NCBI GenBank assembly: GCA_017617035.1
Contig: JAFZWV010000012.1
Span: forward strand, 1-50,997
DNA: 50,997 nucleotides
Source: Bacteroidales bacterium
GTDB lineage: Bacteria > Bacteroidota > Bacteroidia > Bacteroidales > UBA932
Direction of reading: 5' to 3'
Made by a program: the position numbers and the translations under genes. Positions 1-50,997 of this stretch are shown here, piece after piece. The notes beneath the pieces were generated by a model. The model did no database searches, was not told the origin of the DNA, and was given only the letters and a program-made list of their open reading frames with translations. Each line of letters opens with the position of its first letter. The stretch's first letter is position 1.

Positions 1-108
1 AGCAGAACAAACTGCACCCCTGAGCCGCTTTTTGCCCGGACTAGGGTCGCCGTCAGACGCGGAGCGTCCTAAGGCGATAGCGGTATCAGGGGTGCAGTTT
101 GTTCTGCT
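1..108. repeat. Structured palindromic element, copy 1
   Basis: The outer arms 1-23 and 86-108 are perfect reverse complements (23 bp). Inside them, GCCGC 24-28 pairs with GCGGT 80-84, CCC 35-37 with GGG 44-46, TCGCC 47-51 with GGCGA 73-77, and GACGC 56-60 with GCGTC 64-68 around a gga loop. The core 22-86 closely matches 13991-14055 (copy 2), but the outer arms are unrelated in sequence between the copies. The element begins 4 nt after the stop codon of the minus-strand gene at 113-1054, so it could act as its 3' end structure or terminator. The left arm starts at base 1, so the element may extend beyond the window. It could be a structured RNA, a REP/MITE-like mobile palindrome, or an insertion into a terminator hairpin. 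Confidence 0.75.
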
Positions 109-112
109 TATT

Positions 113-1054
113 CTAGCGAAGGATTGTTTTGTTAGCTAGATTGATTCGAATTTTGGTCATGGAACTGCCCTTGTAGTAGATCATTGCAAGGGTGGTTTCA
201 TTTTCGAAATAGAAGTTTTTCAGGTACCACTGGGTCTGGCGGTTGGTACAGACGGGTACAGCCCAGACGAGGATATAGTTGCCAGTCGAGGAATTGCGGA
301 CAACAAGGCAGGTATAGCCGCGGGCGTCGATGGCGGCGCACTGGTATTTTCCCTTGCTCTCTTTGCGGGCTGTTTTGAACGCCGCAGCCAGCGAACTTTC
401 GGCTGCGACAGAGCCTATCTCAAAGCGTTTAGCCGATCCCATAGCATTGGGATTGCGCTCCAGCCACCACTCGATAGACTTGTCGGTGAGATAAATATCT
501 TCCGAGAGAACGACCAGACGCTCGTCAGCTGCGACCAATGCGGCCAGATAATCCACCGCAGGAGAGGGATTCTCAACGAAACCGAGGTTCGACATACCCT
601 CTATCTTATAATCCGGCAGAGCCGATGGGCTCAGGAGGTTGCGACCGTTGAAATTGACGGTTTCTACATAGTCTCCTGTCAGACGAACTACGGAAACCAC
701 ATAATCCAAGTCCTTCCCGCCTTCGTTGACCCTCAGATAGGAAAGCAAAGCGTATCTCTCACCGTCGATTGTAACAAGTCCCAAAGAATCGGTCGGAATG
801 ATTTGTTCCGCCTCATCTAAACCAAGGACTATAGGCTCGCCCATCGCAAGCCATTTCTTTCCGGCGAGCCTGAAATGCTTCAGGGTAGCTTCACTCTCGC
901 CGTAAGTCAGACCGACGGTATACAGCCTTTTACCTTCCTGATACTCGACCGTATACTTGCAGTCCTCGCGGGGGTCTACGGCTTTCTTCTTCGCCGCGGA
1001 AGCGGGAAGACAAATCGCGATCAGCGCGAGGACTGTATACAGGCGTTTAAGCAT
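113..1054 (-). CDS. Secreted protein of unknown function
   Basis: The product is 313 aa. A Sec signal peptide is visible (MLKRLYTVLALIAICLPASA, cleavage about residue 20), followed by a lysine-rich stretch and a mainly beta-like soluble sequence with no transmembrane helix. I do not recognise a family and see no catalytic motif. Its ATG overlaps the TAA stop of the trigger factor gene as TAATG at 1052-1056, so the two are probably translationally coupled. It is the last gene of the gyrB-HD-tig cluster. Its TAG stop at 113-115 is followed almost at once by the structured element at 1-108. It is probably periplasmic or surface-exposed. The lack of a lipobox cysteine after the hydrophobic core argues against a lipoprotein. 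Confidence 0.85.
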   Translation of the reverse strand: MLKRLYTVLALIAICLPASAAKKKAVDPREDCKYTVEYQEGKRLYTVGLTYGESEATLKHFRLAGKKWLAMGEPIVLGLDEAEQIIPTDSLGLVTIDGERYALLSYLRVNEGGKDLDYVVSVVRLTGDYVETVNFNGRNLLSPSALPDYKIEGMSNLGFVENPSPAVDYLAALVAADERLVVLSEDIYLTDKSIEWWLERNPNAMGSAKRFEIGSVAAESSLAAAFKTARKESKGKYQCAAIDARGYTCLVVRNSSTGNYILVWAVPVCTNRQTQWYLKNFYFENETTLAMIYYKGSSMTKIRINLANKTILR

Positions 1055-2046
1055 TACTTGAGCTCGCGGAATTTCTCGGAAGTGATCTTCTTGGCCTTGA
1101 GGGTGATGGTCTCCTTGATCTTGGAGAGAACCTTCTGATCCTCGACCTGCTCTGCGAGGCGGTCGATCTGCTTCTGATCGTTAAGAACGTTCTTTACGGC
1201 CTCTGCAATCATATCCTCGGGGACGTTGCCGATACCGTACATGGCGTACTGGTAGGTAACGAAAGCCTTTGCGGCCTCCTCGATATCCTGCTTGGTAATC
1301 TCGAAGCCGAACTTCTTCATGAGGTAACCGCGGACCATCTGCCACTTGAAATCCTCAAGGAATGCCGGGAACTCCTTCTCGAGCTGCTCCTCGGTAACCT
1401 TGCCTTCATTGGCATGGAGAAGCCACCTGCGAAGGAACGCCTCGGGAAGCTCGATGCCTGCCTTAGCGACGTAGAAGTCGCGGATATCTTTATTCAGACG
1501 CCATGCAGCTTCGTCTTTATTGGAAGCCTCGAAACGCTCGGCGACCTCTTTGTCGATCTCCTCGTCGGACTTCTCTTCCTTCTTTCCTTCGTAGTACTTC
1601 TTCATCGAAGCGGCCATATCGGCTTTCTCCTTCGCGGAAACGCTGATGGTATAGGTAGGAACGGAATCTTCCTTCACTACGTCGACGTTGATCTCAGGCG
1701 AAAGGGCGATATCGAACACGAAAACGAAGTCGTTGCCGCTCTGCCAGTCGATTTCAGGCTGATTCTCGCTGCCGAGGGGCTCGCCGAGGATGTGGAGCTT
1801 TTCGTCGTCGATGTACTTGCCGAGCGACTCACCCACTACCTGGTTGACTGCGTCTGCCAGGACCTGTCCGCCATAAACCTTCTGGATGAGGGACATGGGG
1901 ACATTACCCTTACGGAAACCCTTGAAATCTGCGTTGCGCCTTACTTCGGCGAGTTTTTTCCTTTCGATTTCGGCATAGTCTGCCGCTTCTACGTTCATGG
2001 TCAGCTCAAGATTGAGCTTGTCTACCTGTTTCTTTGTGATTTTCAT
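1054..2046 (-). CDS. tig: Trigger factor, short form without PPIase domain
   Basis: Trigger factor is the ribosome-bound chaperone that shields nascent chains near the exit tunnel. The N-terminal ribosome-binding signature is clear: FKGFRKGNVP at about residues 41-50, matching the family GFRxGxxP loop. The C-terminal helical arm region (about 150-330) is rich in E, K and A, as in the family. The protein is 330 aa, whereas usual trigger factors are about 430-450 aa. The sequence passes almost directly from the ribosome-binding domain (ending near the VKEDSVPTY stretch) to the chaperone arms, so the FKBP-like peptidyl-prolyl isomerase domain appears to be absent. It lies 13 nt after the HD-protein gene and its stop overlaps the start of the next gene, so it sits inside an operon. 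Identification is firm; loss of the PPIase domain is inferred from length and from the missing FKBP region. Confidence 0.93.
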   Translation of the reverse strand: MKITKKQVDKLNLELTMNVEAADYAEIERKKLAEVRRNADFKGFRKGNVPMSLIQKVYGGQVLADAVNQVVGESLGKYIDDEKLHILGEPLGSENQPEIDWQSGNDFVFVFDIALSPEINVDVVKEDSVPTYTISVSAKEKADMAASMKKYYEGKKEEKSDEEIDKEVAERFEASNKDEAAWRLNKDIRDFYVAKAGIELPEAFLRRWLLHANEGKVTEEQLEKEFPAFLEDFKWQMVRGYLMKKFGFEITKQDIEEAAKAFVTYQYAMYGIGNVPEDMIAEAVKNVLNDQKQIDRLAEQVEDQKVLSKIKETITLKAKKITSEKFRELK

Positions 2047-2059
2047 ATATCGTATGTAG

Positions 2060-4087
2060 TTATTTTTTTCTTCTGGTCGGGTACTTGATCCTTTCGTGGT
2101 GGATCTGTGCTATGTAGCTCTTTATCACCTGTTTAGCTGTCGTCAGCTCTTTTACGGTGATATCTGCCTCCTCGAGCTGGCCGTCGTCGATCTTATCCTG
2201 GATGAGTCTCTCCACGAGATTGGAGATAGCCTCAGGAGAGTAGTCTCTGAGGGCTCGCGACGCGGCCTCGAGGGTGTCGCAGATCATCAGGATGACCTGC
2301 TCCTTAGTATGGGGCTTACGACCCGGATAGCAGAACTCCGGTTTTTGAGCGGGATCACCGCCCTCCTTAAGGAACTTGTCGTAGAAATATGATACGCAAT
2401 TCGTTCCGTGGTGAGTCAGGATGAAATCCGAGACAACCGTAGGGAGATGGTGGTCGTGGGCCAGTTCCATTCCGTCTGTGACATGCTTGATGATGTCCTG
2501 GGCGCTTTGTAACGGAGTAAGTTCGGAGTGATATTTTGCTTCATCGGAAGTGATGAGCGATTCATTCTCCACAAAGCAGAGAGGGTTGTTCATCTTACCG
2601 ATGTCGTGATACAAAGCTCCCACTTTCACCAGCGACTCGTCCGCTCCTATCGCACGGGCGATTGACTGGGCAAGAGCCGAAACCTGCAGCGAATGCTGGA
2701 AGGTACCGGGCGCCTGCTTCTCCAGATCGCGAAGCAGTTCGTTGGAATTCTCTGCAAGTTCATCGAGGCGCGAAGTGGAAACCAGATTGAATATCCTCTC
2801 CATCAGATAGATGATGGGATATGCGGCAATCTGGAGGAACGCTGCGACCAGCAGGAATATGAAGTCGTTCGGGAAATTCAGGGTTACCAGTCCGGTGAGG
2901 CTGCATGCGAAATAGACCAGGGCGCTGATTACGAATGTGACAATGGCCAGCACAAACTGCTTGACTCCGCGTGAGAAGTAATTGAACACGTAGAGGGTCA
3001 CTGTGCCGGAAGCAACATACATAAGGAATAGCGCCTGACCGTTAGATGCGAAAAGCAGCAACGGGAGCAGCGACACTATGTAGACCGGATAGATGACTCT
3101 GGTCCTGAAGAAAGCCTTGAGGTAAAGCGCGAATACCGGGAACGGTACCAGGAGTAACCACTTGGGCCAAAGCCTTATGAAGGACATCTCCAGGGCCGCC
3201 ATCAGGGCAAAGAGCGTAAGGATGTACAGATATCTGTTGTAATCCTTGAACACAAGCGGATTCGAGAAATGAATCGCGAAATAGAAGCAGACCAGGATAG
3301 CCAGACATATGAGGATGTTAGCCAGCCAGAACTGCCAGTCTTTTCCGCCGGAGAGCACGCTGTGTTCGTATTCCGCTTTGTAGGAATCAAGAACCTGGGC
3401 AAGTTCTTCGGTAACTATATCCCCCTTCGAGATTATGACATCACCTGCTCTGACAAAGCCAACAGTCTCAGAGACAGTGTTTTCTGTCTGACTGCTGACA
3501 AGTGAAGTAAGCTGCTCGTCAAATACCAGATTGGGAGCAATCAGTTCATACGCCCCGCAAGCGCGAAGCACAGAATCCGCCCTCATCTCCGGAAAAGCCT
3601 CCGTCACCTTGGCGAGCAAGGCAGTACGGGCTGATGCAAGTCCATAAAGTTCGGTGGCGGGCACTTTTTGTGCGCGCTTGTCTTTCTGGACATAGGCTAT
3701 TTCCTGGCCTTCGAGGGCAGTGAGACCGGCATCTGAAACAACACCTTTGGCGTAGATACCCCTGAGCGAGGATACTATCGCCGGCTCAAGTTCGGGATAC
3801 GCCAGATAATCGAGGCCCGAAGCCTTAGCCAGGTTCTCGGCGGCCACAGCCTCAGAAAGCTTGAAATAAGGCGGGCGGACCGAGGAATTTCTAAGGGCCT
3901 CCTCGGCTTTCTGGGCTTCGGTCTTGAGGATGGGGAAATCCAATCTGGCGCGACAGGTCTCATACTGCCACACCGAGCCTTTCCTGTATTCATAACTCCA
4001 TTTCGCTGTCCTTGGCGTGAAGGCTATCAAGACGGCGAAAAGAAAAATGAGAGGCGAAAAGACCTTGAGTCTGAAGGGTATTTTCAT
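2060..4087 (-). CDS. 7TM-HD family phosphodiesterase (PgpH-like)
   Basis: The 675-aa protein has one N-terminal membrane anchor (about 8-27), a large extracytoplasmic 7TMR-HDED-type region (about 30-240), a block of about seven membrane segments (about 250-430) and a cytoplasmic HD domain. Metal-binding residues are visible: H465 in the HSLQV motif, H494-D495 in YHDIGK, and later H residues in HDHHLP and LTHHG. Members of this family, such as Listeria PgpH, hydrolyse cyclic di-AMP, a regulator of potassium and cell-wall homeostasis. That substrate is inferred from family membership only. The gene starts 4 nt after the gyrB stop and precedes tig, which is compatible with one transcript. The TrkH gene elsewhere in this window would be a plausible physiological partner for a c-di-AMP enzyme, but nothing in the sequence links them. 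Confidence 0.9.
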   Translation of the reverse strand: MKIPFRLKVFSPLIFLFAVLIAFTPRTAKWSYEYRKGSVWQYETCRARLDFPILKTEAQKAEEALRNSSVRPPYFKLSEAVAAENLAKASGLDYLAYPELEPAIVSSLRGIYAKGVVSDAGLTALEGQEIAYVQKDKRAQKVPATELYGLASARTALLAKVTEAFPEMRADSVLRACGAYELIAPNLVFDEQLTSLVSSQTENTVSETVGFVRAGDVIISKGDIVTEELAQVLDSYKAEYEHSVLSGGKDWQFWLANILICLAILVCFYFAIHFSNPLVFKDYNRYLYILTLFALMAALEMSFIRLWPKWLLLVPFPVFALYLKAFFRTRVIYPVYIVSLLPLLLFASNGQALFLMYVASGTVTLYVFNYFSRGVKQFVLAIVTFVISALVYFACSLTGLVTLNFPNDFIFLLVAAFLQIAAYPIIYLMERIFNLVSTSRLDELAENSNELLRDLEKQAPGTFQHSLQVSALAQSIARAIGADESLVKVGALYHDIGKMNNPLCFVENESLITSDEAKYHSELTPLQSAQDIIKHVTDGMELAHDHHLPTVVSDFILTHHGTNCVSYFYDKFLKEGGDPAQKPEFCYPGRKPHTKEQVILMICDTLEAASRALRDYSPEAISNLVERLIQDKIDDGQLEEADITVKELTTAKQVIKSYIAQIHHERIKYPTRRKK

Positions 4088-4091
4088 CCGG

Positions 4092-6113
<2,022 letters not shown>

Positions 6114-6126
6114 TTAAAAAAGTGCG

Positions 6127-6134
6127 CGAATTTA
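6127..6134 (-). promoter_or_regulatory. Possible -7 box for gyrB
   Basis: The minus strand reads TAAATTCG, one base from the Bacteroidota -7 consensus TAnnTTTG, 25 nt before the gyrB ATG in the 40-nt gap after the beta-barrel gene. No clear -33 element is seen. Confidence 0.4.
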
Positions 6135-6141
6135 CTAAAAA

Positions 6142-7797
6142 TTATCTGAAATTCAGACATAAACCGGCGGTGACATGGACGCCGTGTTCCGCTATGAACG
6201 GAACCTTCTCTATAGTCTGATTGAGGAGGTTGCCTCCGCGGACCCAGAGCGACAATACCTGTCCGAATTTGTACTCGCCGTAAAGGCCGAGGTCATACCA
6301 TGCAGGCAGTGTATAGGTCACGGGGGTAGCGGCCGAAGATGTCATCTTGCGGGCCAGGGCCATATCGAGCGAAGCGCCCAGATAGATGCGCCTGCGCAGG
6401 TTGTATGTAAGGCTGAAGTCCGACGAGAACATTGGCAGATCAAATACGTCTGCAAGTCCTGCTATGTCGGTCTTCCTATAGTGCAGTCCCGTCTCGAATT
6501 CAAGGGAGCGGAGGTCGAGAACTGCAGTAAAGTCTCCATAAGTCATATCGTAGTCGGCGAACTTGACGACAGCACTGTTCGCCGCTGCGTTAATGCCATC
6601 CAGAGGCGAATTCTCAAGCGCCGCGTGGCCGAAACGGAGGTCATATTCGAACAGAGAGCTTATGCTGCCGGTCAAACCTACGAAGGCATTGTATTTCTCA
6701 CGGGAGAACCTAAGGTCGTCATAGGCCTCTGCTGCATCGTAGTGGAAGTGATGGTTGCGCCTCTTGAGCCTCGAATAGGAGTTCAGTTCGTCGCCGCCTG
6801 TTACGCCTGCGAACAGATCCAGTTTGTCGCCCACCATCTTGATATCGATCTTGAGATGGGGATAGACATAGAACTGGTTGTTGGCCATCCTGTTGATGAA
6901 TGAGAACTTGGCTCCGGTCGAGAAATGGAATTTCCACAAATCGAAATCGACCTTCGGAGTTGTAGCGATATTGTAAATAGCCGAACTCAGGGCTCCGTAA
7001 TAGCCAGTGTAGCCTGTATTGAAGTCCATGGCGAAGCCTACCGGGGCCTCCGAAACCGGAGCGAGAGTTCCCCTGATAACGAACTTGCTCTCCTTAAGGG
7101 CGGCGACAGCATTCTCTACCGCCATGTTGTAGCGAGCCTCGACATCGTAGGCCATGAAGTTATCGGCCCAATCGGCAGAGGCTATTCTAATCTGGCCACC
7201 GAAGTCGTGGTATGTTCCTGCGGTAATAATCTCATCCCTGACAAAAAGGCCGTTGTATGCGACATTGAACATGAGGTCTGTCTTGGCGAGCCTAAGGGTA
7301 CCCTGAATACCGGCGCGCTCGGAGAGGTCCATTCCATCGTAGGTAGAAGTTCCATCCCACCTGATGGTATTGTCGAAATGCCTGTAGGGTCCATAATAGC
7401 CCTGGAAGTCCTGATACGCAGTGATGGCGAACTTCCCTTTAGTACGGGGAGACAGGACTGCGGTAGCCACCGGATGAAGGGTGTAACCCGCACCCAGGTT
7501 CATGAAGAAGACCGAGCGTTTCTCGCGGGTCGTCTGCGGGATGAACATGATGTTGTACGGAGTGAAGTCGTAAGAGCCTTTGTAGGGCTTTGCGAACACG
7601 TCGTAGTCGAAATTGAGGTTGAATTGCACCACTGAATCCGGAACGGCCGGGTCTACGACTACCTTGTTGTAATCGTCGACCGAAGACAGGAAGTCGTTGG
7701 TAACCTCAACACTCGGGTTGATGGTCTGGGCCATCGAAACGCCGCAGGCGATGAGCGCCAGGAGCGCGCTGAGTATGATATGTCTGGTTTTCATCAT
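6142..7797 (-). CDS. Outer-membrane beta-barrel protein, TonB-receptor-like
   Basis: The 551-aa protein has a signal peptide ending near GVSMAQ (about residue 24) and then many alternating hydrophobic/aromatic strands (for example FFMNLGAGYTLHP, KFAITAYQDFQGYYG, DLGLYGEYKFGQVLSLWVRG). It ends in the terminal strand GLCLNFR. The NLLNQ turn near the C terminus resembles the last strands of TonB-dependent receptors, but there is no plug domain or TonB box, so it is not a complete receptor. It is probably an outer-membrane barrel of unknown cargo. Its ATG lies 7 nt after the stop of the TPR gene, which suggests that the exported TPR protein and the barrel work together, for instance as an envelope assembly or secretion pair. 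The partnership is inference from gene order. Confidence 0.8.
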   Translation of the reverse strand: MMKTRHIILSALLALIACGVSMAQTINPSVEVTNDFLSSVDDYNKVVVDPAVPDSVVQFNLNFDYDVFAKPYKGSYDFTPYNIMFIPQTTREKRSVFFMNLGAGYTLHPVATAVLSPRTKGKFAITAYQDFQGYYGPYRHFDNTIRWDGTSTYDGMDLSERAGIQGTLRLAKTDLMFNVAYNGLFVRDEIITAGTYHDFGGQIRIASADWADNFMAYDVEARYNMAVENAVAALKESKFVIRGTLAPVSEAPVGFAMDFNTGYTGYYGALSSAIYNIATTPKVDFDLWKFHFSTGAKFSFINRMANNQFYVYPHLKIDIKMVGDKLDLFAGVTGGDELNSYSRLKRRNHHFHYDAAEAYDDLRFSREKYNAFVGLTGSISSLFEYDLRFGHAALENSPLDGINAAANSAVVKFADYDMTYGDFTAVLDLRSLEFETGLHYRKTDIAGLADVFDLPMFSSDFSLTYNLRRRIYLGASLDMALARKMTSSAATPVTYTLPAWYDLGLYGEYKFGQVLSLWVRGGNLLNQTIEKVPFIAEHGVHVTAGLCLNFR

Positions 7798-7804
7798 TTT
7801 CGGA

Positions 7805-10762
7805 TCAGAGGGTTGATAATTTGTGTTCGACTGCCTCGAGGACGTCGTCGCCCTCTTGCGTAGGAGTATATCCGTCGCGGACGCTTTCGTAAGTCACGAC
7901 GGCCTGCTCGATATTGCCCCTTTCCACGAAGGAGTCTCCGAGCACTATGAATGCCTTGGCAAGCCAGTAGGACTGGTCCCCTGCCTTAGAGGCGAAATCG
8001 TAGACGAGATTCTCGACCTCGGCGAAGTTGCCGCCGTCGAACGTAGACTGGATAATGAGGTAACGCGCCTCTGCGCCCTCGGAAGTGGAAGGTTCTGCTG
8101 CGAGTCTGCGCAGAATCTTGAAGGCTTCGTCGCGCTGGCTCATGGTCATGTAGGACTTGGCCTGGATATACAGGGCCTCACGGCGAAGGGCCGGAGTATC
8201 AGCGCTGGTCTCAACCGATTTGGCAGAAGAGATTGCCTCAGAGTACATTCTGGCCCGGTAGGCAGAACGCATCTTACCTGCAAGGGCGTCCAGTTTGCTG
8301 GAGAGCATCTCTCTCTGGGCGAGGAGGCTCGAATAAGCGGCGAATGCATCCTCGAAGTGCTCCAGAGAGTAGGACAGCCCGGCATAATTGACCATGGCCA
8401 GTTCAGCATAAGAACCGCTCAGGCCTTCGTCGATGGCCTTGCGATAGTGTTCGCAGGCTTTCTCTTTCTGGCCTAAGTTCTTGTAGGATTCGGCCATGTA
8501 ATAATACGCAGTCGGGACGTTCTTGGCGTCGGGATAGGTAGTGATAAAGCGTATGAACGACGATACCGCGACAGAATAGTTGCCGGCCAGGAAGACCTGC
8601 TCCGCGGTATTGTAATAGAGCTGCATCTTATCGGCCTCGCTGGTTCCGACCGTGAGATTATTGGCCTCGAGGTACTCGATATACTTCTCAGGCTGCTTTT
8701 TAGCATTGTAGATAGACTGGATCGAGAGGAGGGCGTCGTTGGAGTACTCAGTACCCGGAAGTTCGGCAACCACCCTCTTATAGCAGTCAAGGGCCTCGTC
8801 GAACTTCGAAGAATTCCTGAGGACCATACCCTTACCCATCAGAGCCTTTGCAATGTACTCTTTGTCGGTAGTATTGTCTTCCAGAAGCGCAAAGACACTG
8901 ATTGCCATTTCAGGATCTCCGACTTCGTTGTATGCCCTTCCCAGTTCGTAGAGAGCCTGGTTGTAGTATTTGCTGCCGGGGACGGCGTTCTTGACTTTCG
9001 ACAAGGCATTTACCTTACGGGCCTTATCTCCGACCAGACCGTATGCTACACCCTGATGATAATAAGCATAGAGATCAGTTGCAGACGGCGGGTATTCCTT
9101 GATATACGCCTCATAACCGGCTGCGGCGCCAGCGTAATCCTTGCGGGCGAAATCGCAATCTGCACGCCTCAGCAAAGCGTCGGGCCTGGCAATGGCATCC
9201 CTGGTTCTGAGGTAAGTGTCGAACCACTTCGCGGCTCCGGCGTAATCGCCCTGCTTGAAATAAGTATATGCGATACTGTATGGGATTAGTTTGCCTTCCT
9301 GACGGCCATCCAGAGCCGAGAGGTTATACAGGTCGTTGTAAAGCTTAAGAGCCTCCTTATACTGCTCCGTTCTGTAATAGGTCTCGGCGAGGGTATACCT
9401 GCAGAGCTGATTAAAACGGTCACTCTTCGGGAAATAATACGCCGAAGCGGCCTTAAGGTAGCGGACGGCGTCTTTATAAGCGCCCTGACGGATCAGCTGA
9501 TCCGCCCTGAGGTAGTTGGCCTTAACGTAATTGATTTTCTGGGGATCAGTAAGGTCGTCGATATTGTCGTAAGCCTCAACCGCTGCCGCATAATCCTTTT
9601 TCTTAAGAGCAGACATGGCCAGATAGTCGTAAATCATCTCGCCCTTTCGGGAAGTGTTGTACTTGGCAATGTAGTCTGCAAAGACGGAATCGTCGCTGTT
9701 GAGGTCGAAGGCAAGTTTTGCGTAGTTGAAGAAGGCATCTTCCTTAATGACGTCGTCGTAATCCTTCGCAGAGGCTTCCTGGAAGCAAGTAAGAGCCTTA
9801 ACCTTATTCTTGAGTTTGATGTAGGAATGGCCCAGCTGATAGGAAGCGATCTGGCCTATGGAGTCGGTCCTGTCTGTCATCTGCTCGAAGTACCTGATTG
9901 CATTGGTGTAGTCTCCGAGTGCATAATAAACCGAGCCGGCGTGGAAATAATCCGAGCTGGAGCCAGCCGAAATGTTTTCCCATCCAAGATACTCCTTCGC
10001 TTTACCGGCATCGCCTACAACCAGATAGGACTCGGAAAGGAGCCTGGACATGTGCTGCTTGCTTTCCGGAGTAAGCTCGGGGAAGATTTTCTCGCCGTTG
10101 GTGACCACATAATTGTAGTCCTTCATCATGAAGTGACAATCGACAAGGTAGAACTCGCTTAGAACGCGGAAACGTTCGTCTGTCTTAGTCAGCTCGAACC
10201 ACGATGCGGCCTTCTCGAAATCGCTCTGTCCGTAGGCTATGCTACCGAGGGCAAAGCGCGAGGGGTTCATGTACTGCGATTCGCGGGAAGTACACTCGAG
10301 GAAGCAGTCCGCGGCTTCATCCATATTGCCGACATTGTATGCGGCAAAGCCCTTTTTATACCAATACTCGCTGACTTCGGCCCTCGAGAGGCGGTTCTTG
10401 CTGACCTTTGCAAACTCTTCCGAGGCTTTGTCGTACTCGCCTTCGTCGAAGAGGAGCAGAGCATATTCGAAGTGAACTGCGGAGTTGATCATGGTCTTGG
10501 GGTGAGCGGCGTCCATAGCCTCCACCCTCCGGCCGCAGTTGCGGCTGCGAAGTTTTACTGCACAAAGCAGAGCATAGTCTTGGCATAAATCGTCTCCGGT
10601 CTGCAGCTCGAACAGGGCCATAGCCCTTTCGTACATACCGTGGCGGTACATATCCAGCGCTGTTTTATAAGCTTTCGTATCTTTTGAGAAAGCCGAAGGG
10701 GTGCTCAGCAGAGCGAGAACCGCCGCAAGAACGGCGAACTTTCGTAGCGGGAAAACCCTCAT
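7805..10762 (-). CDS. Large exported tetratricopeptide-repeat protein
   Basis: The 985-aa protein has a signal peptide (MRVFPLRKFAVLAAVLALLS, ending near SAFS) followed by TPR units almost to the end. Recurrent patterns are visible, such as YDKASEEFAKVS, GNMDEAADCFLEC, GDYTNAIRYFEQ, KDYAGAAAGYEAYI, KFDEALDCYKRVV and GNIEQAVVTYESV. Some of these resemble the YbgF/BamD style of periplasmic TPR. Such proteins act as protein-interaction scaffolds in the periplasm. No enzymatic domain is visible. It is the first gene of a two-gene unit with the beta-barrel gene 7 nt downstream, and it is divergent from ftsE. A -7 box lies at 10800-10807. Confidence 0.88.
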   Translation of the reverse strand: MRVFPLRKFAVLAAVLALLSTPSAFSKDTKAYKTALDMYRHGMYERAMALFELQTGDDLCQDYALLCAVKLRSRNCGRRVEAMDAAHPKTMINSAVHFEYALLLFDEGEYDKASEEFAKVSKNRLSRAEVSEYWYKKGFAAYNVGNMDEAADCFLECTSRESQYMNPSRFALGSIAYGQSDFEKAASWFELTKTDERFRVLSEFYLVDCHFMMKDYNYVVTNGEKIFPELTPESKQHMSRLLSESYLVVGDAGKAKEYLGWENISAGSSSDYFHAGSVYYALGDYTNAIRYFEQMTDRTDSIGQIASYQLGHSYIKLKNKVKALTCFQEASAKDYDDVIKEDAFFNYAKLAFDLNSDDSVFADYIAKYNTSRKGEMIYDYLAMSALKKKDYAAAVEAYDNIDDLTDPQKINYVKANYLRADQLIRQGAYKDAVRYLKAASAYYFPKSDRFNQLCRYTLAETYYRTEQYKEALKLYNDLYNLSALDGRQEGKLIPYSIAYTYFKQGDYAGAAKWFDTYLRTRDAIARPDALLRRADCDFARKDYAGAAAGYEAYIKEYPPSATDLYAYYHQGVAYGLVGDKARKVNALSKVKNAVPGSKYYNQALYELGRAYNEVGDPEMAISVFALLEDNTTDKEYIAKALMGKGMVLRNSSKFDEALDCYKRVVAELPGTEYSNDALLSIQSIYNAKKQPEKYIEYLEANNLTVGTSEADKMQLYYNTAEQVFLAGNYSVAVSSFIRFITTYPDAKNVPTAYYYMAESYKNLGQKEKACEHYRKAIDEGLSGSYAELAMVNYAGLSYSLEHFEDAFAAYSSLLAQREMLSSKLDALAGKMRSAYRARMYSEAISSAKSVETSADTPALRREALYIQAKSYMTMSQRDEAFKILRRLAAEPSTSEGAEARYLIIQSTFDGGNFAEVENLVYDFASKAGDQSYWLAKAFIVLGDSFVERGNIEQAVVTYESVRDGYTPTQEGDDVLEAVEHKLSTL

Positions 10763-10799
10763 ATGTTTTAGCTAATTTTTATTAACGTTTCCAATCTTA

Positions 10800-10807
10800 C
10801 AAATTTA
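10800..10807 (-). promoter_or_regulatory. -7 box for the TPR/barrel operon
   Basis: The minus strand reads TAAATTTG, an exact match to TAnnTTTG, about 38 nt before the ATG at 10762. It lies only 13 bp from the oppositely oriented ftsE box, so the two divergent promoters overlap in their upstream regions. No convincing -33 box is seen. Confidence 0.6.
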
Positions 10808-10820
10808 CTAAAAATGTCGC

Positions 10821-10828
10821 TATATTTG
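10821..10828 (+). promoter_or_regulatory. -7 box for ftsE-nth
   Basis: TATATTTG matches the Bacteroidota -7 consensus exactly. Transcription would begin about 10835, which rules against the GTG at 10831 as the ftsE start and supports the ATG at 10861. Confidence 0.6.
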
Positions 10829-10860
10829 TAGTGTTTCACTACAAAAATTTCAAGTTTTTG

Positions 10861-11580
10861 ATGGCCCAGGAAAAGGAAGCCCTGATTACCCTCAGGAAAG
10901 CCCACATCAAAGGTGGAGAAGACACCGTTCTGTACGATGTCGACATGGACATTTATCCCGGCGATTTCGTCTACATAGTCGGCAAAGTCGGTTCCGGTAA
11001 AACATCCATAATCAAGACTTTCATAGCCGAGTACCCCCTCGAAGAAGGCAAGTGCGACGTCTGCGGATTCAGGATCCAGAACCTTCGTACCAGAGACATT
11101 CCCCTGCTGCGCCGCAAATGCGGAGTCGTATTCCAGGATTTCATGCTCCTTACAGACAGGAGCGTCCACGACAACCTTGAGTTCGTCCTGAAAGCTACGG
11201 GCTGGAAGAACAAGGCCGACATTGAAAAGCGCATCATGGAAGTGCTTGAGGCGGTAGGGATGGAGACCAAGGAGCATAAAATGCCCCACCAACTCTCCGG
11301 AGGCGAGCAGCAGCGTATCGCGATAGCCCGCGCCATCCTAAACAAACCCGAAGTCATCCTGGCCGATGAGCCGACCGGCAACCTCGACGCAGAGACTGCC
11401 CATGGCATCATGAACCTGTTCCGCAAGCTCAACGAGACCGATGGAACCGCGGTAGTGATAGTTACCCACGACCGCCACATCTTCGAAAACTTCCCCGGAA
11501 GGGTCTTCGTCTGCGCCGACGAGCATTGCCGCGAGCTCCAGAGCTCGAGCGAAGTAATCGACCTGAGCATCACCATATGA
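10861..11580 (+). CDS. ftsE: Cell-division ABC ATPase FtsE
   Basis: FtsE is the ATPase of the FtsEX complex, which couples septal ring assembly to activation of peptidoglycan hydrolases. With ATG 10861 the product is 239 aa, close to the family length. Walker A is GKVGSGKT (residues 41-48), the signature is LSGGEQQR, Walker B is VILADEPTGNLD, and the switch histidine is in VTHD. A GTG 30 nt upstream is in frame but falls at the predicted transcription start. No ftsX follows. The next gene is nth, whose ATG overlaps the ftsE TGA as ATGA at 11577-11580. FtsE resembles MacB/LolD ATPases; the FtsE call rests on the overall sequence and on the absence of an adjacent permease. Confidence 0.82.
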   Translation: MAQEKEALITLRKAHIKGGEDTVLYDVDMDIYPGDFVYIVGKVGSGKTSIIKTFIAEYPLEEGKCDVCGFRIQNLRTRDIPLLRRKCGVVFQDFMLLTDRSVHDNLEFVLKATGWKNKADIEKRIMEVLEAVGMETKEHKMPHQLSGGEQQRIAIARAILNKPEVILADEPTGNLDAETAHGIMNLFRKLNETDGTAVVIVTHDRHIFENFPGRVFVCADEHCRELQSSSEVIDLSITI

Positions 11581-12212
11581 CGCGCAAAGCCCGCTTTGAA
11601 GCCATAGTCGACTGGTTCGCCGCGAACCGGCCGGAAGCGCAGTCGGAGCTCGACTTCGACTCCCCTTTCCAGCTGATCTGCGCCGTGGTCCTGTCGGCCC
11701 AGTGTACCGACAAACGGGTGAACATGGTCACTCCCGCGCTGTTCGAGCGCTATCCCTCCCCCGACGCCCTCGCCAAAGCCGAGGCGGCCGAGGTGTACGA
11801 GCTGATCAAATCGGTCTCCTACCCCAACTCCAAGGCCGCACATCTAGTGGGCATGGCCCGCAGGCTGGTCGAGGTCTACGGAGGGCAGGTTCCTTCCGAT
11901 ATCGACGAGCTCATGACCCTGCCCGGCGTTGGCAGGAAAACGGCGAACGTAGTCGCCTCCATAGTCTATGACAAGCCCGTAATCGCCGTAGATACCCATG
12001 TCTTCAGGGTAGCCCACAGGCTCGGCCTATCGGACGGCAAGACCCCCGAGGCCGTGGAACGTGACCTGGAGGCCCACATCGCCGAAGAGTTGCGCCCGGT
12101 CGCGCATCACTGGCTGATTCTCCATGGCCGCTATATATGCACTGCACGCACCCCCCGTTGCGGAGAGTGCGCGCTGAAACAGTGGTGCAAATCTTATAAG
12201 GCCGACCGCTAG
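11577..12212 (+). CDS. nth: Endonuclease III
   Basis: Endonuclease III is a base-excision-repair DNA glycosylase/AP lyase that removes oxidised pyrimidines. The 212-aa protein carries the helix-hairpin-helix motif LPGVGRKTANVV with the catalytic-type Lys at 121, the catalytic Asp at 139 (IAVDTH) and a C-terminal 4Fe-4S ligand pattern C-x6-C-x2-C-x5-C (CTARTPRCGECALKQWC). The ATG at 11577 is chosen because it gives the family N terminus and the ATGA overlap with ftsE. The TAG stop lies inside a palindromic CTAG (12209-12212) that also supplies the stop codon of the convergent phosphohexomutase gene. Confidence 0.96.
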   Translation: MTRKARFEAIVDWFAANRPEAQSELDFDSPFQLICAVVLSAQCTDKRVNMVTPALFERYPSPDALAKAEAAEVYELIKSVSYPNSKAAHLVGMARRLVEVYGGQVPSDIDELMTLPGVGRKTANVVASIVYDKPVIAVDTHVFRVAHRLGLSDGKTPEAVERDLEAHIAEELRPVAHHWLILHGRYICTARTPRCGECALKQWCKSYKADR

Positions 12213-13870
12213 CTGCAGAACTGCGCCTTGAGAGCGGCGATCTTCTCGTCTGCATCCGCGCCCTTGGCCCCGAAGTAGAACTTGATCTTCGGCTCAGTTC
12301 CGGAAGGACGTACGCTTACAACATCCCCCGCCTCGTCGAAGAACTGAAGGACGTTGGACTTCGGCTGACCGGTCTTTTCGGGCTCGAGGTAGTCTATGAC
12401 TTTGGTGACGGGGCTGCCGCAGAGCTCTTTTGGAGGATTGGCCCTGAGGCCAGCCATGATGGCGGCGATCTCCTCGGCGCCGGACTTACCCTTGCGCACT
12501 ACCGAGACGAGGCCTTCCTTGCGATAGCCGTATTCCTTGTAAATCTTCTGCATGAGCTGGTAGAGGGTCAGGCCCTGCTCGGCGGCCCAGGCTGCGGCTT
12601 CTGCGACCATGGCCGAGGCGATCTGGGCGTCCTTGTCGCGGACGAACTGGCCCACGTTGAAGCCGTAGCTCTCCTCGCCGCCGCAGATGAACTCACCGTC
12701 CTTTTCGTTGCGCTTGACGACCTCGGCTATGTACTTGAAGCCGGTGAGGACGTTGTATACGGGGATTCCGAAGCCATCGCAGATCTCGCGAATGAGCTCG
12801 GTGGTGACTATAGTCTTGACGACATACTGGCCGGGCTTCTGGAGGCCGAGTTCCTTGCGGCGGCTCAGAATATAGTAAGTCATCAGGGATGCGGTCTGGT
12901 TGCCGTTGAAAAGGACCATCTTTCCTTCGGGATCGCGCACGGCGATACCCATTCGGTCAGCATCAGGGTCGGTGGCGATAACGATATCGGCACCCGTCTC
13001 ATCGGCCTTGGCGATAGCCATCTTGAGGGCCGAGGGCTCCTCGGGATTCGGGGACATGACTGTCGGGAAGTTTCCGTCGCTGACGTCCTGCTCGGGGACA
13101 TGGATGACGTTCTCGAAGCCGAGCCTCTTGAGAGTCTCGGGGACGAGCCTTACGCCGCAGCCATGGAGAGGCGTATAGACGAACTTGAAGCCTGCGTGCT
13201 TCTTGCAGATATCCTTGCTCAGGGTCAGCGAAAGGATGTCGCGAAGGTAGCACTCATCCTCTGCTACGCCCATCATCTCTATCTTACCTGCGCCTGCGCC
13301 AGGATGGAACTTCACCTGTGAAGGAGAGGTGATCTTCGCGACCTCGGCGACTATGTCTTTGTCTACCGGAGAAGTAATCTGTCCGCCGTCGGACCAGAAA
13401 ACCTTATAGCCGTTGTACTCCTTCGGGTTATGCGAGGCAGTTACCATAACGCCGGCTGTAGCGCCCTTCAGACGTATGCTGTAGCTAAGTTCGGGAGTAG
13501 GACGGATGTCGTCAAAAAGATAGACATGGAGGCCGTTTGCACTCAGGACGTCCGCGGTGATGCGGGCGAACTCGCGGCTGTGGTTACGGCTGTCGAAGGA
13601 GATGCAGACCTTGATGTCTTCACCCTTCACGTTTGCGAGAATGTAGTTGGCAAGGCCTTGGGTGGCCATTCCGACCGTGTACTTGTTCATCCTGTTGGTT
13701 CCTGCGCCCATAATGCCGCGAAGGCCGCCGGTACCGAATTCGAGATTACGGTAGAAAGCGTCTTCCAGAGCGACGGGGTCGCCTGCCATCAATTCCTGAA
13801 CTTCCTTTCGGGTTTGCTCGTCGAACTCCTCAGAGAGCCACGACTGCGCGATAGACTTGTAATCTGACAT
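12209..13870 (-). CDS. Phosphohexomutase (phosphoglucomutase/phosphomannomutase)
   Basis: The enzyme interconverts hexose 1- and 6-phosphates in the cytoplasm. The 553-aa alpha-D-phosphohexomutase shows the phosphoserine loop TASHNPKEYNGYK (Ser146), the metal-binding loop DPDADRMG, the sugar-binding loop GGEESYGF and the phosphate-binding loop RPSGTEPKIKFY, in the expected order. Length and the SHNP-KEYNGYK motif fit the PgmB-like/phosphopentomutase-2 branch common in Bacteroidota. The choice between glucose, mannose and pentose phosphates cannot be made from sequence alone. It is a single-gene unit convergent with nth (4-bp overlap) and preceded by its own -7 box and a GC hairpin. Confidence 0.93.
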   Translation of the reverse strand: MSDYKSIAQSWLSEEFDEQTRKEVQELMAGDPVALEDAFYRNLEFGTGGLRGIMGAGTNRMNKYTVGMATQGLANYILANVKGEDIKVCISFDSRNHSREFARITADVLSANGLHVYLFDDIRPTPELSYSIRLKGATAGVMVTASHNPKEYNGYKVFWSDGGQITSPVDKDIVAEVAKITSPSQVKFHPGAGAGKIEMMGVAEDECYLRDILSLTLSKDICKKHAGFKFVYTPLHGCGVRLVPETLKRLGFENVIHVPEQDVSDGNFPTVMSPNPEEPSALKMAIAKADETGADIVIATDPDADRMGIAVRDPEGKMVLFNGNQTASLMTYYILSRRKELGLQKPGQYVVKTIVTTELIREICDGFGIPVYNVLTGFKYIAEVVKRNEKDGEFICGGEESYGFNVGQFVRDKDAQIASAMVAEAAAWAAEQGLTLYQLMQKIYKEYGYRKEGLVSVVRKGKSGAEEIAAIMAGLRANPPKELCGSPVTKVIDYLEPEKTGQPKSNVLQFFDEAGDVVSVRPSGTEPKIKFYFGAKGADADEKIAALKAQFCS

Positions 13871-13898
13871 ATATTATGCGGTTTTAGTTTCAATCTCT

Positions 13899-13906
13899 CA
13901 AATTTA
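13899..13906 (-). promoter_or_regulatory. -7 box for the phosphohexomutase gene
   Basis: The minus strand reads TAAATTTG, an exact TAnnTTTG match, 28 nt before the ATG at 13870. A hairpin (13920-13951) occupies the region where the -33 contact would lie. Confidence 0.6.
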
Positions 13907-13919
13907 CAAAAAGTTTTTG

Positions 13920-13951
13920 GACTTCTCCCCCTAAAAAAGGGGGGAGTAGTC
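13920..13951. promoter_or_regulatory. Hairpin upstream of the phosphohexomutase promoter
   Basis: Arms 13920-13931 and 13940-13951 pair over 12 bp with one mismatch, around an A-rich loop, with a run of C facing a run of G at the loop end. It lies just upstream of the minus-strand -7 box and 18 bp from structured element copy 2. It could be a regulator site or a terminator remnant; no function is shown. Confidence 0.4.
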
Positions 13952-13969
13952 GAAAAATCGCATGTAGAG

Positions 13970-14075
13970 CGAAAAGCAACCGGTGCCCCAGAGCCGCATT
14001 TGCCCGGAGTAGGGTCGCCGCCAGACGCGAAGCGTCTCCAGGCGATAGCGGCTATGGGGTACCGGTTGTTTTTCG
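13970..14075. repeat. Structured palindromic element, copy 2
   Basis: Outer arms 13970-13990 and 14055-14075 pair over 21 bp with two G-U type positions (13976/14069 and 13985/14060). Inner pairs match copy 1: GCCGC 13993-13997 with GCGGC 14048-14052, CCC 14003-14005 with GGG 14012-14014, TCGCC 14015-14019 with GGCGA 14041-14045, and AGACGC 14023-14028 with GCGTCT 14032-14037 around a gaa loop. The shared core blocks include TTTGCCCGGA, TAGGGTCGCCG and AGGCGATAGCGG. It lies between two divergent genes and its right arm ends exactly where the methyltransferase -7 box begins, so it would occupy that promoter's upstream region. Confidence 0.8.
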
Positions 14076-14088: not shown

Positions 14089-15195
14089 ATGAAGAAGTCG
14101 TTTGCAGAGATAGTGGCAAAAGAGCAGTCGCGGGCGCTCGAAAGGGTGCTTGCGAAGGTACCGCTATGGGCCGGCATCGACCTCCAGATACCAGGGAGTC
14201 TTGCTGCGGAGCAGTGCTCTTCGGCCGCTACAGCCCTGTACAAGGCCGAATTGCTAAACGATTGCAAGACTATAGCGGATCTCACTGGCGGGCTGGGCGT
14301 AGACTGCTGGGCTTTCGCGCAGAACGCGAAAACTGTCTACCACAACGAACTGAACGCGGAACTGTCGGAAGCTGTGCAATCCAATTTCAGCAAACTTGGC
14401 ATAACAAACGTCGAATTCAGTGCGGCAAAAGCAGAAGACAGACTGGCGAGCCTGCCGGATGTCGACGCCATCTACCTCGACCCTTCGCGGCGCGACGGCA
14501 CAGGCCGAAAGGTCTTTCTGGTCGAAGACTGCAGGCCTGATGTTCTGGCCATGCTTCCGGCCCTGCTCGGCAAAGCAGCAACCGTTCTGATCAAGCTTTC
14601 GCCCATGGCAGATCTCACCATGCTGCGCGAACGTTTCGGCAGGAATCTCAGGGAGTTACACATCGTCAGCTCAGGCGGAGAAGTAAAAGAATTGCTGCTC
14701 AAACTCACTCGCGAGCCAAACAAGAGTGTCAGCATTATTGCAACAAATCTCCACGACAAGTTGGAGTTCGCTCCAGAGGAAGAGGTAGAAGCCCAGGCTG
14801 CTTATCCGACGAGCGCAGATGACCTTCACAATGGACTGCTCTTCGAACCCGATCCGGCAATCACTAAAGCCGGAGCCTTCAAACTCCCCTGCACCCGATA
14901 CAACCTAACGAAACTCGGCCGCTTTACGCACCTCTACCTAAGTCCTGACAAGCAGGCATTCGGCAAATACTACCACGTAGAAAACATATTCGACTGGGGA
15001 CGCGAGGGCTTCAAGGCGTGCGCAGCGAAATATCCATGCGCCGAAGTTTCGGCCAGAAATGTACCTATGAGTTCCGACGAACTCAAAGCACGCCTCAAAG
15101 TCCGCCCGTCGGCAGACTTTCATATCTTCGGTGTAACTATTGACCTGCCTACAGGTCAGCAGCGCAAGCTTATTGCTGCAAAGAGAGATTCCTGA
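14089..15195 (+). CDS. THUMP-like domain class I SAM methyltransferase
   Basis: The 368-aa cytoplasmic protein has a Rossmann methyltransferase core with the SAM-binding motif IADLTGGLGVD (about 64-74), a downstream acidic strand (VYHNELN) and a DPSRRD motif in the position of the catalytic DPPY/NPP-type loop. The C-terminal part (about 280-360) fits the THUMP-like domain that accompanies this family. Such proteins are annotated as putative RNA methyltransferases; the target is unknown. Its 3' end overlaps the convergent S9 peptidase gene by 26 bp. Its start lies directly beyond structured element copy 2. Confidence 0.87.
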   Translation: MKKSFAEIVAKEQSRALERVLAKVPLWAGIDLQIPGSLAAEQCSSAATALYKAELLNDCKTIADLTGGLGVDCWAFAQNAKTVYHNELNAELSEAVQSNFSKLGITNVEFSAAKAEDRLASLPDVDAIYLDPSRRDGTGRKVFLVEDCRPDVLAMLPALLGKAATVLIKLSPMADLTMLRERFGRNLRELHIVSSGGEVKELLLKLTREPNKSVSIIATNLHDKLEFAPEEEVEAQAAYPTSADDLHNGLLFEPDPAITKAGAFKLPCTRYNLTKLGRFTHLYLSPDKQAFGKYYHVENIFDWGREGFKACAAKYPCAEVSARNVPMSSDELKARLKVRPSADFHIFGVTIDLPTGQQRKLIAAKRDS

Positions 15196-50626: not shown

Positions 50627-50662
50627 CACAAAAAGGGTGACCAGCTGGTCACCCTTTTTGTG
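50627..50662. terminator. 36-bp perfect palindrome, ssrA terminator
   Basis: Arms 50627-50644 and 50645-50662 are exact reverse complements with no loop. GC-rich GGGTGACCAG is flanked by A5 and T5, giving an intrinsic terminator that works on both strands. It overlaps the last two bases of the tmRNA 3' end (mature end about 50661). Confidence 0.85.
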
Positions 50663-50997
50663 GAGATGGGCGGACTCGAACCGCCGTCCAAACATTATAC
50701 CCAACAGCTTTCTACACGCTTATTCTTCCTTTGGTGTCGGCTTCGGAACGCCGGAAGACGGGCTATGCCGAAGCTTATCCTTTTAATCTTAACGGGGCTT
50801 AAAGGAGTCGCCCCGAGCATCCGGTCTGGATGATACCCCGTGTGCCAGAAAGGACCGGCCTGAATCCTGGCGGGATATACGTCAGTGCCGCAGCCTTGGC
50901 GGCTCTGATTAATGCGTGTCACTTGGTGACTTAGCAAGCGTATGAATAGTTGTAGTTGCCTACTATTGGTTGAAGACTGAGATTAACGGGAGGGCCT
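50661..50997 (-). ncRNA. ssrA: tmRNA, 3' part (5' end beyond the window)
   Basis: tmRNA rescues stalled ribosomes and adds a degradation tag. On the minus strand the 3' acceptor arm ends CATCTCCA with discriminator at 50661; CCA is not encoded. The T arm GGCGG-TTCGAGT-CCGCC occupies 50669-50685. A pseudoknot-type stem GGGGC/GCCCC lies upstream of it, and a tag reading frame is seen at 50931-50960 followed by the hairpin GTCAC-CAA-GTGAC. The 5' half of the acceptor stem lies past the right edge, so the gene is partial. The identity rests on the tRNA-like end plus the tag frame. Confidence 0.9.
50931..50960 (-). other. tmRNA tag reading frame (GNYNYSYAC)
   Basis: Codons GGC AAC TAC AAC TAT TCA are followed by TAC GCT TGC TAA. 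The resume codon GGC is preceded by AATAGTA, like the TAGT-type context before resume codons. The deduced tag is GNYNYSYAC. Bacteroidales tags usually end ALAA (for example GENNYALAA), so the Tyr-Ala-Cys end is unusual. The other two frames give no tag-like peptide. Confidence 0.65.

Follow-up and report, generated by a model that had tools for sequence, protein, structure and literature searches.

The analysed window, a stretch of 50,997 nucleotides that constitutes the entire contig C30 of a 1.64-Mb Bacteroidales MAG (80% complete; hereafter G000), carries two copies of a palindromic repeat of about 100 bases, which belongs to a dispersed family seen so far in one genus of the Bacteroidales. 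The repeat consists of a locus-specific palindromic stem of ~20-30 bp enclosing a junction with two hairpins, which together form the conserved core (Table 1). Hairpin 1 reads CCC-GGACTA-GGG, and hairpin 2 occurs either in a long form, TCGCC..GACGC-GAA-GCGTC..GGCGA, or in a short form, TCGC-GAA-GCGA. Perfect palindromes are expected to decay by mutation, yet the stems of this family drift and stay paired, and their loops turn in place. The account that we find somewhat more probable than its competitors taken together is that of a REP/RPE-like miniature palindrome, the stem of which is re-templated and the loop flipped by template switching, and which has perhaps been co-opted as a 3'-end hairpin.

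Table 1. Parts of the two repeat copies in the window
Feature	Position	Strand	Remarks
Copy 1, 5' arm	1..29	+	subfamily with CAAACTGCACCCC arms; starts at the first base of the contig
Copy 1, core	30..78	+	35-46, hairpin 1; 47-77, hairpin 2 in its long form
Copy 1, 3' arm	79..108	+	paired with 1-29; the minus-strand ORF 113-1054 has its stop codon 4 nt away
Copy 2, 5' arm	13970..13997	+	
Copy 2, core	13998..14047	+	14003-14014, hairpin 1; 14015-14045, hairpin 2 in its long form; opposite orientation at the orthologous place of G062
Copy 2, 3' arm	14048..14075	+	the gene 14089-15195 has its ATG 13 nt further on

A sequence-only reading of the window had proposed an element in two copies, at 1-108 and 13970-14075, with a common core and unrelated outer arms of 23 and 21 bp that pair within each copy. 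The element is real, as the copies have 53 nt in common at 89% identity with the same hairpins, and the arms do pair within each copy, albeit over greater lengths than given there, with 29 pairs counted in copy 1 and 25 in copy 2. The count of two falls well short: a BLAST search of G000 with copy 2 returned 31 places at E<0.01 (the query itself included), the 16-mer CCCGGANTAGGGTCGC occurs 47 times in this genome as against 0 for its reversed control, and a covariance model likewise gives 47 matches, with 24 each in two relatives, the yak-rumen MAG RGIG10170 (G061) and the MAG SRR873595_bin.18 (G062). The exact core pattern, run on a named genome collection, matched these two Bacteroidales MAGs as well. 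Across the genus, the covariance model has matches at E<=0.01 in 11 of 61 genomes and, in a broader sample for which fewer candidates were scored in each genome, at E<=0.001 in 41 of 220, G000 being counted in both cases and the E-values of the model being rough. Hence the prospect, also raised by that reading, of just two copies devoid of homologues is set aside.

The exact 16-mer is absent from all 60 relatives scanned, and a pattern for the short core matched none of 393 genomes of the order, a set with three members of this genus, among them G000, whose long core the pattern misses. A viral link of the 16-mer was considered and dropped, as three viral contigs carry it in one identical context that has no TTT junction and in which no palindromic arms were seen by eye. 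At the gathering score, Rfam has no match to the repeat copies in the window; at E up to 10, the nine matches listed for copy 2 all lie under the cut-off, and seven of them are microRNA hairpins. Among the matches listed in literature searches on RAYT and palindromes in Bacteroid-, on extragenic palindromes and Bacteroidales, and on palindromes and Cryptobacteroides (a guessed genus name), no title describes the repeat, and its encoded peptides were not found in the literature searched, a scope that excludes most subscription papers.

Covariation of the outer arms, which the sequence-only reading had put forward as a check, is pronounced. In 33 aligned copies from three genomes, 95.1% of the cells are paired, versus 69.6% in shuffles and 33-43% in slid structures; 17 of the 18 outer pairs have changed on both sides with 93.8% of the outer cells paired, and the covariation score of 0.618 compares with 0.147 in shuffles and 0.07-0.14 in slid structures. 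Watson-Crick pairs account for 1205 of 1280 stem cells in G000 and 609 of 635 in G061, tallies that include some false or partial members (window 11493, L185 2260, L143 2320 and the partial units at L084). Arm sequences vary from locus to locus, although one subfamily, to which copy 1 belongs, comprises several near-identical copies. Nevertheless, the arms are not unrelated as had been claimed: among 31 mutually dissimilar G000 arms, taken at positions 5-18 in the register from the junction, the common column information is weak and significant, at 2.40 bits versus 1.16 +- 0.20 in shuffles, a value reached by 0 of 1000 shuffles. Thus, the arms of different copies are diverged members of one family.

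Orthologous copies allow these changes to be followed locus by locus. Both flanks could be matched in 20 comparisons, namely 14 loci between G000 and G061, five between G000 and G062 and one between G061 and G062. Left uncounted were cases with a single matched flank (L013/L179, L074/L179, L016/L096, L057/L096), those with flanks away from the copy (L124 comparisons, L028 cross pairs), the L084 partial units (vs L183), the within-genome pairs L117/L119, L095 and L185, and L103/L106, which has the same orientation and repeats the L030 locus. Copy 1, whose 65-base centre is identical to that of L014, was treated as a duplicate and is therefore missing from the stem-cell, orthologue, arm-information, coding, position, hairpin-2 and G-U tallies. 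At the 14 G000/G061 loci, 309 pairs are unchanged (a few of these being unpaired in both genomes), 31 have changed on both sides and are still Watson-Crick, 23 have changed on one side and 4 otherwise, and a further 8, of which 7 are Watson-Crick, have appeared or vanished as whole pairs. Over all 20 comparisons, two-sided changes outnumber one-sided ones by 60 to 33. Six comparisons of coding copies from other genomes, in which the arms are short and the alignment loose, give 80 pairs the same, 19 changed on both sides, 5 on one side and 2 otherwise, with 16 pair indels. Compared with sampled non-orthologous pairs, the arms at the G000/G061 loci score above the 95th percentile in 13 of 14 cases; measured against all other G000 copies, they are nearest to the orthologue at 10 of the 14 loci, tied at 2 and further from it at 2. 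In all five G000/G062 comparisons, arm similarity lies within the background, and these may therefore represent separate insertions at one place.

The core behaves differently from the arms. At the 14 G000/G061 loci, it has the same orientation relative to the flanks in 8 cases and the opposite one in 6, with clearly orthologous arms at five of the six inverted loci (the exception being L087/L111). It is also inverted in two of the five G000/G062 comparisons, copy 2 included, and in the sole G061/G062 comparison. At one and the same linker of dnaX, G018 has the core as AFARTGSRSDAEE and G079 has it inverted, as SASLRDPVRANAPE; its orientation is unchanged in the remaining five coding pairs compared. 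Further, the loop variants travel apart from the arms, and the second hairpin is partly homogenised within a genome. The hairpin-2 variant CTCACAGACGCGCAGCGTCATACGAG is found in 6 of the 23 rows from G061 and in none of the 48 from G000, the converse holds for CCGTTTGACGCGAAGCG (8 of 48 in G000, 0 of 23 in G061), and 20 of 22 rows from G062 have the hairpin-1 loop GGAATA. At 9 of the 14 loci, and in both genomes, hairpin 2 resembles another copy of the same genome more closely than it does the orthologue, long and short forms having been exchanged at two of these loci; of the other five, an own-genome copy is nearer in one genome at 1, the orthologue at 3, and 1 is a tie, in a test biased toward paralogues, since a single orthologue competes with whichever of about 20 to 47 paralogues is closest. 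The sharing of exact hairpin-2 variants is independent of this sampling bias. The copy-2 locus of G061 (L219, reverse complement of 1270-1560) holds a different long palindrome, which adjoins an apparent remnant end of the old 3' arm, CCGGTTGTTTTTTGT.

In the favoured account, the polymerase would switch template at the hairpin during replication. A switch within the stem would copy one arm from the other, yielding compensated substitutions and paired indels, whereas one that enters at one arm and leaves at the other would copy the loop from the opposite strand, inverting it without altering its length. Now and then, copies might also exchange loop variants by switching or gene conversion via the conserved loop ends. 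The copies would once have been dispersed by some agent, a plausible candidate being a Y1/HUH transposase that acts in trans on hairpins, and at gene ends the stem would be tolerated or serve as a two-way 3'-end hairpin. As template switching predicts an excess of two-sided over one-sided changes, paired indels and length-neutral inversion, it fits the above comparisons, from which the individual events are inferred. Template switching has been published as both a maker and a keeper of hairpins, and loop inversions have been described for RNA genes (PMC8794818). A site-specific invertase of the kind that acts on the conserved inverted recombination sites of Bacteroidales phase variation seems disfavoured, because the arms are not conserved between loci. 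Orthologous copies such as these offer natural replicates for testing the proposed role of template switching as a maker and keeper of hairpins, and they warn that stem covariation need not imply a selected RNA.

Selection for a two-way terminator could alternatively keep the stems paired. In its full form, this explanation, which we regard as unlikely though deserving of a hearing, holds that the repeat is a two-way 3'-end hairpin (an intrinsic terminator or mRNA end protector), with selection on both strands keeping the stem perfect and the loop flipping freely. It is consistent with the strong positional bias of the copies, which counts for the favoured account as well, as determined from the longest neighbouring ORFs with near stop defined as -15 to 12 nt: 30 of 44 copies in G000, 16 of 22 in G061 and 10 of 19 in G062 lie near a stop codon. 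In G000 this involves 32 of 50 three-prime sides versus 5 of 34 five-prime sides (Fisher p 7e-6), with the same bias in G061 (p 1e-5) and a weaker one in G062 (p 0.03). However, 14 of the 44 copies lie away from any stop codon, including copy 2, which sits between divergent genes 13 nt before the start codon of a gene with PG_1098_Fer and Thump_like Pfam domains (copy 1, outside the count, conforms to the bias). Of 32 exits, 10 have at least 6 U in 12 nt, in favour of a terminator, and 22 lack such a tract, against it. The copies within essential ORFs of sister species also count against such a role, and the paired indels and conserved loop are left unexplained by it. The arm mismatches would suit selection at the RNA level, G-U being in excess of A-C by 15 to 5 in G062 (p 0.04) and by 45 to 25 in the three genomes together (p 0.022); the two do not differ significantly at 24 to 13 in G000 (p 0.10) or when G000 is pooled with G061 (p 0.20), where the counts are 6 to 7, and all these tallies contain the same false or partial members as those of the stem cells. 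In genomes found only via the structure model, the ratio is 19 to 1, but that model favours G-U. The modest excess speaks against a pure DNA process, so some RNA-level selection may be at work. The same excess, together with the strong pairing and covariation and the invariant loop positions, could be claimed for a cis-acting or free structured RNA, one of the possibilities that the sequence-only reading had entertained. To this we assign only a very slim chance, because the core inverted at 6 of the 14 orthologous loci would put the other strand toward the same genes; additionally, sites are found within ORFs as well as at the starts and the ends of genes, and Rfam, as noted above, offers no match at its gathering score.

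That reading had also considered insertion into the loops of pre-existing hairpins. As the main process this is unsupported, because the arms of different loci are related, while replacement of the loop within standing arms did find support. A corresponding explanation would make the core a mobile cassette, able to enter the loop of a standing palindrome or to take the place of the core already there, in either orientation, and it accommodates the loci at which related arms enclose differing loop variants, long and short forms, and both orientations. Conversion between copies also accounts for such loop exchange, however, the arms at different loci are diverged relatives, and no core-less orthologous palindrome was noticed in passing among the loci read; accordingly, we judge this explanation to be distinctly improbable. 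A bolder proposal, that the core (~50 nt or shorter) is an active cassette, the current variant of which in a genome is time and again copied into resident palindromes and re-oriented there by a dedicated machinery, is a quite unlikely one; were it true, the palindromes would be standing landing sites and the core the selfish unit. Among the three possibilities raised at the outset, that of a REP-like mobile palindrome fits best, given the many dispersed palindromic copies in what is so far one genus.

In the sister species, short-core copies lie in frame within dnaX, cysS, fmt and atpG, which adds a further bacterial group with coding palindromes beside Rickettsia. An open frame spans 25 of 28 rows in G018, G027, G070, G036 and G079 taken together (one G079 row being no element), 1 of 2 in G005, 1 of 4 in G019, 0 of 2 in G074, 6 of 48 in G000 (some of them false rows), 2 of 23 in G061 and 5 of 22 in G062. 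Pfam domains around the insert identify DnaX (twice), CysS, Fmt, AtpG, UvrA, DnaG, MetG, prephenate dehydrogenase and AtpB. These 10 confirmed genes use one core frame per orientation, encoding an AFARTGSRSD-like peptide in 4 and an SLRDPVRA-like peptide in 6; at L196, L146, L130 and L149 the longest ORF is a shadow frame, and the gene frame was taken instead (by eye at L149). Other core frames occur among loci with unconfirmed ORFs. For fmt, 9 of 30 loci (L279-L308) were parsed, of which 2 carry the repeat, 6 have no insert and one, in G018, is occupied there by an unrelated insert.

The defining feature of MITEs is a conserved pair of terminal inverted repeats, to which the present family does not conform, as its centre is conserved and its arms vary among loci. 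It is like the MITE BrickBuilt of Porphyromonas gingivalis in being small, non-autonomous and intergenic, as that element is described (PMC4596501, PMC10969869), and is set apart from it by description. The Rickettsia palindromic elements (RPEs) form several families of short palindromic repeats; nearly half of these repeats are reported to sit in frame within unrelated protein genes, where they encode a conserved peptide (PMC10969869), and the occurrence of a palindromic element in frame in conserved protein genes is a feature that the sister species have in common with them. RPEs are reported to lose repeat identity over time (PMC6649704), unlike the present copies, whose arms remain paired, whose loop flips and whose loop variants are shared within a genome, a contrast drawn from descriptions. 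In the mitochondria of Nematomorpha, perfect coding palindromes are kept over time, and the authors name template switching as one possible mechanism (PMC6649704); palindromes are similarly kept in genes here, although in bacteria, as a dispersed repeat family and with a conserved loop. REP/BIME/REPIN elements with RAYT and TIRs with TIRYT are abundant and mostly extragenic palindromes with paired stem variants (PMC3733652). The many dispersed short palindromes (47 in G000) and the Y1 transposase genes of the same genomes recall these systems. Conversely, the stem of ~20-30 bp differs from the mostly 6-9 bp reported there for the GTAG families, and the loop has two hairpins. In a reading by eye of some of the copies, no GTAG or CGTC end tag was noticed.

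The search for a RAYT-type transposase, also proposed in advance, did not yield a cognate enzyme. Among 30 Y1_Tnp (PF01797) matches in 8 genomes, i.e., G000 and 7 others, no gene was found flanked on both sides by the repeat in motif scans of ~1.5 kb either side of each locus in these incomplete MAGs, a motif match at L178 being left out. In the only case of proximity seen, a single copy lies ~0.3 kb downstream, on one side, of the Y1 gene L160 in G019; motif matches at L173 and L176 were discarded as repeat copies because the sequences read proved to be other ones. The Y1 ORFs of G000 have palindromes on both sides at L089, L091 and L093 and on one side at L092, with a tandem repeat in the flank of L090 and a weak sixth match at L094. 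The transposase-like ORFs L089, L092 and L093, with palindromes of their own, are TIRYT-like.

Several other palindromes and pieces accompany the family. A second palindrome family, GGACTTCTCCCC..GGGGAG[AT]AGTC, lies beside copy 2 (window 13919-13951) and several other copies, and also flanks the Y1 transposase-like gene on contig C19 (L091) on both sides. G018, G027 and G036 have palindromes of a related class, in which the core is longer, CATGGCCACCCTCGGCC..GGGAGGGGTCGCGAAGCGAC (L249, L257, L259, L263, L265, L273 and L234); Rfam was also run on four loci of relatives, and L249, L257 and L263 have no match up to E 0.1. Partial units, comprising the 5' arm, hairpin 1 and the start of hairpin 2, are found directly upstream of a full copy at L020, L021, L078, L084 (which has two) and L105, spaced 54-78 nt apart and representing the 5' part in all five cases; the solo pieces L033 and L035 have retained the 5' part as well. 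At a contig end of G061 (L117), there is an inverted 175-base piece of the L119 flank, 95% identical, perhaps owing to differences between strains or to the way in which the palindrome was assembled. Finally, the far end of the window contains a tmRNA gene on the minus strand (50658-50997), truncated at the contig end.
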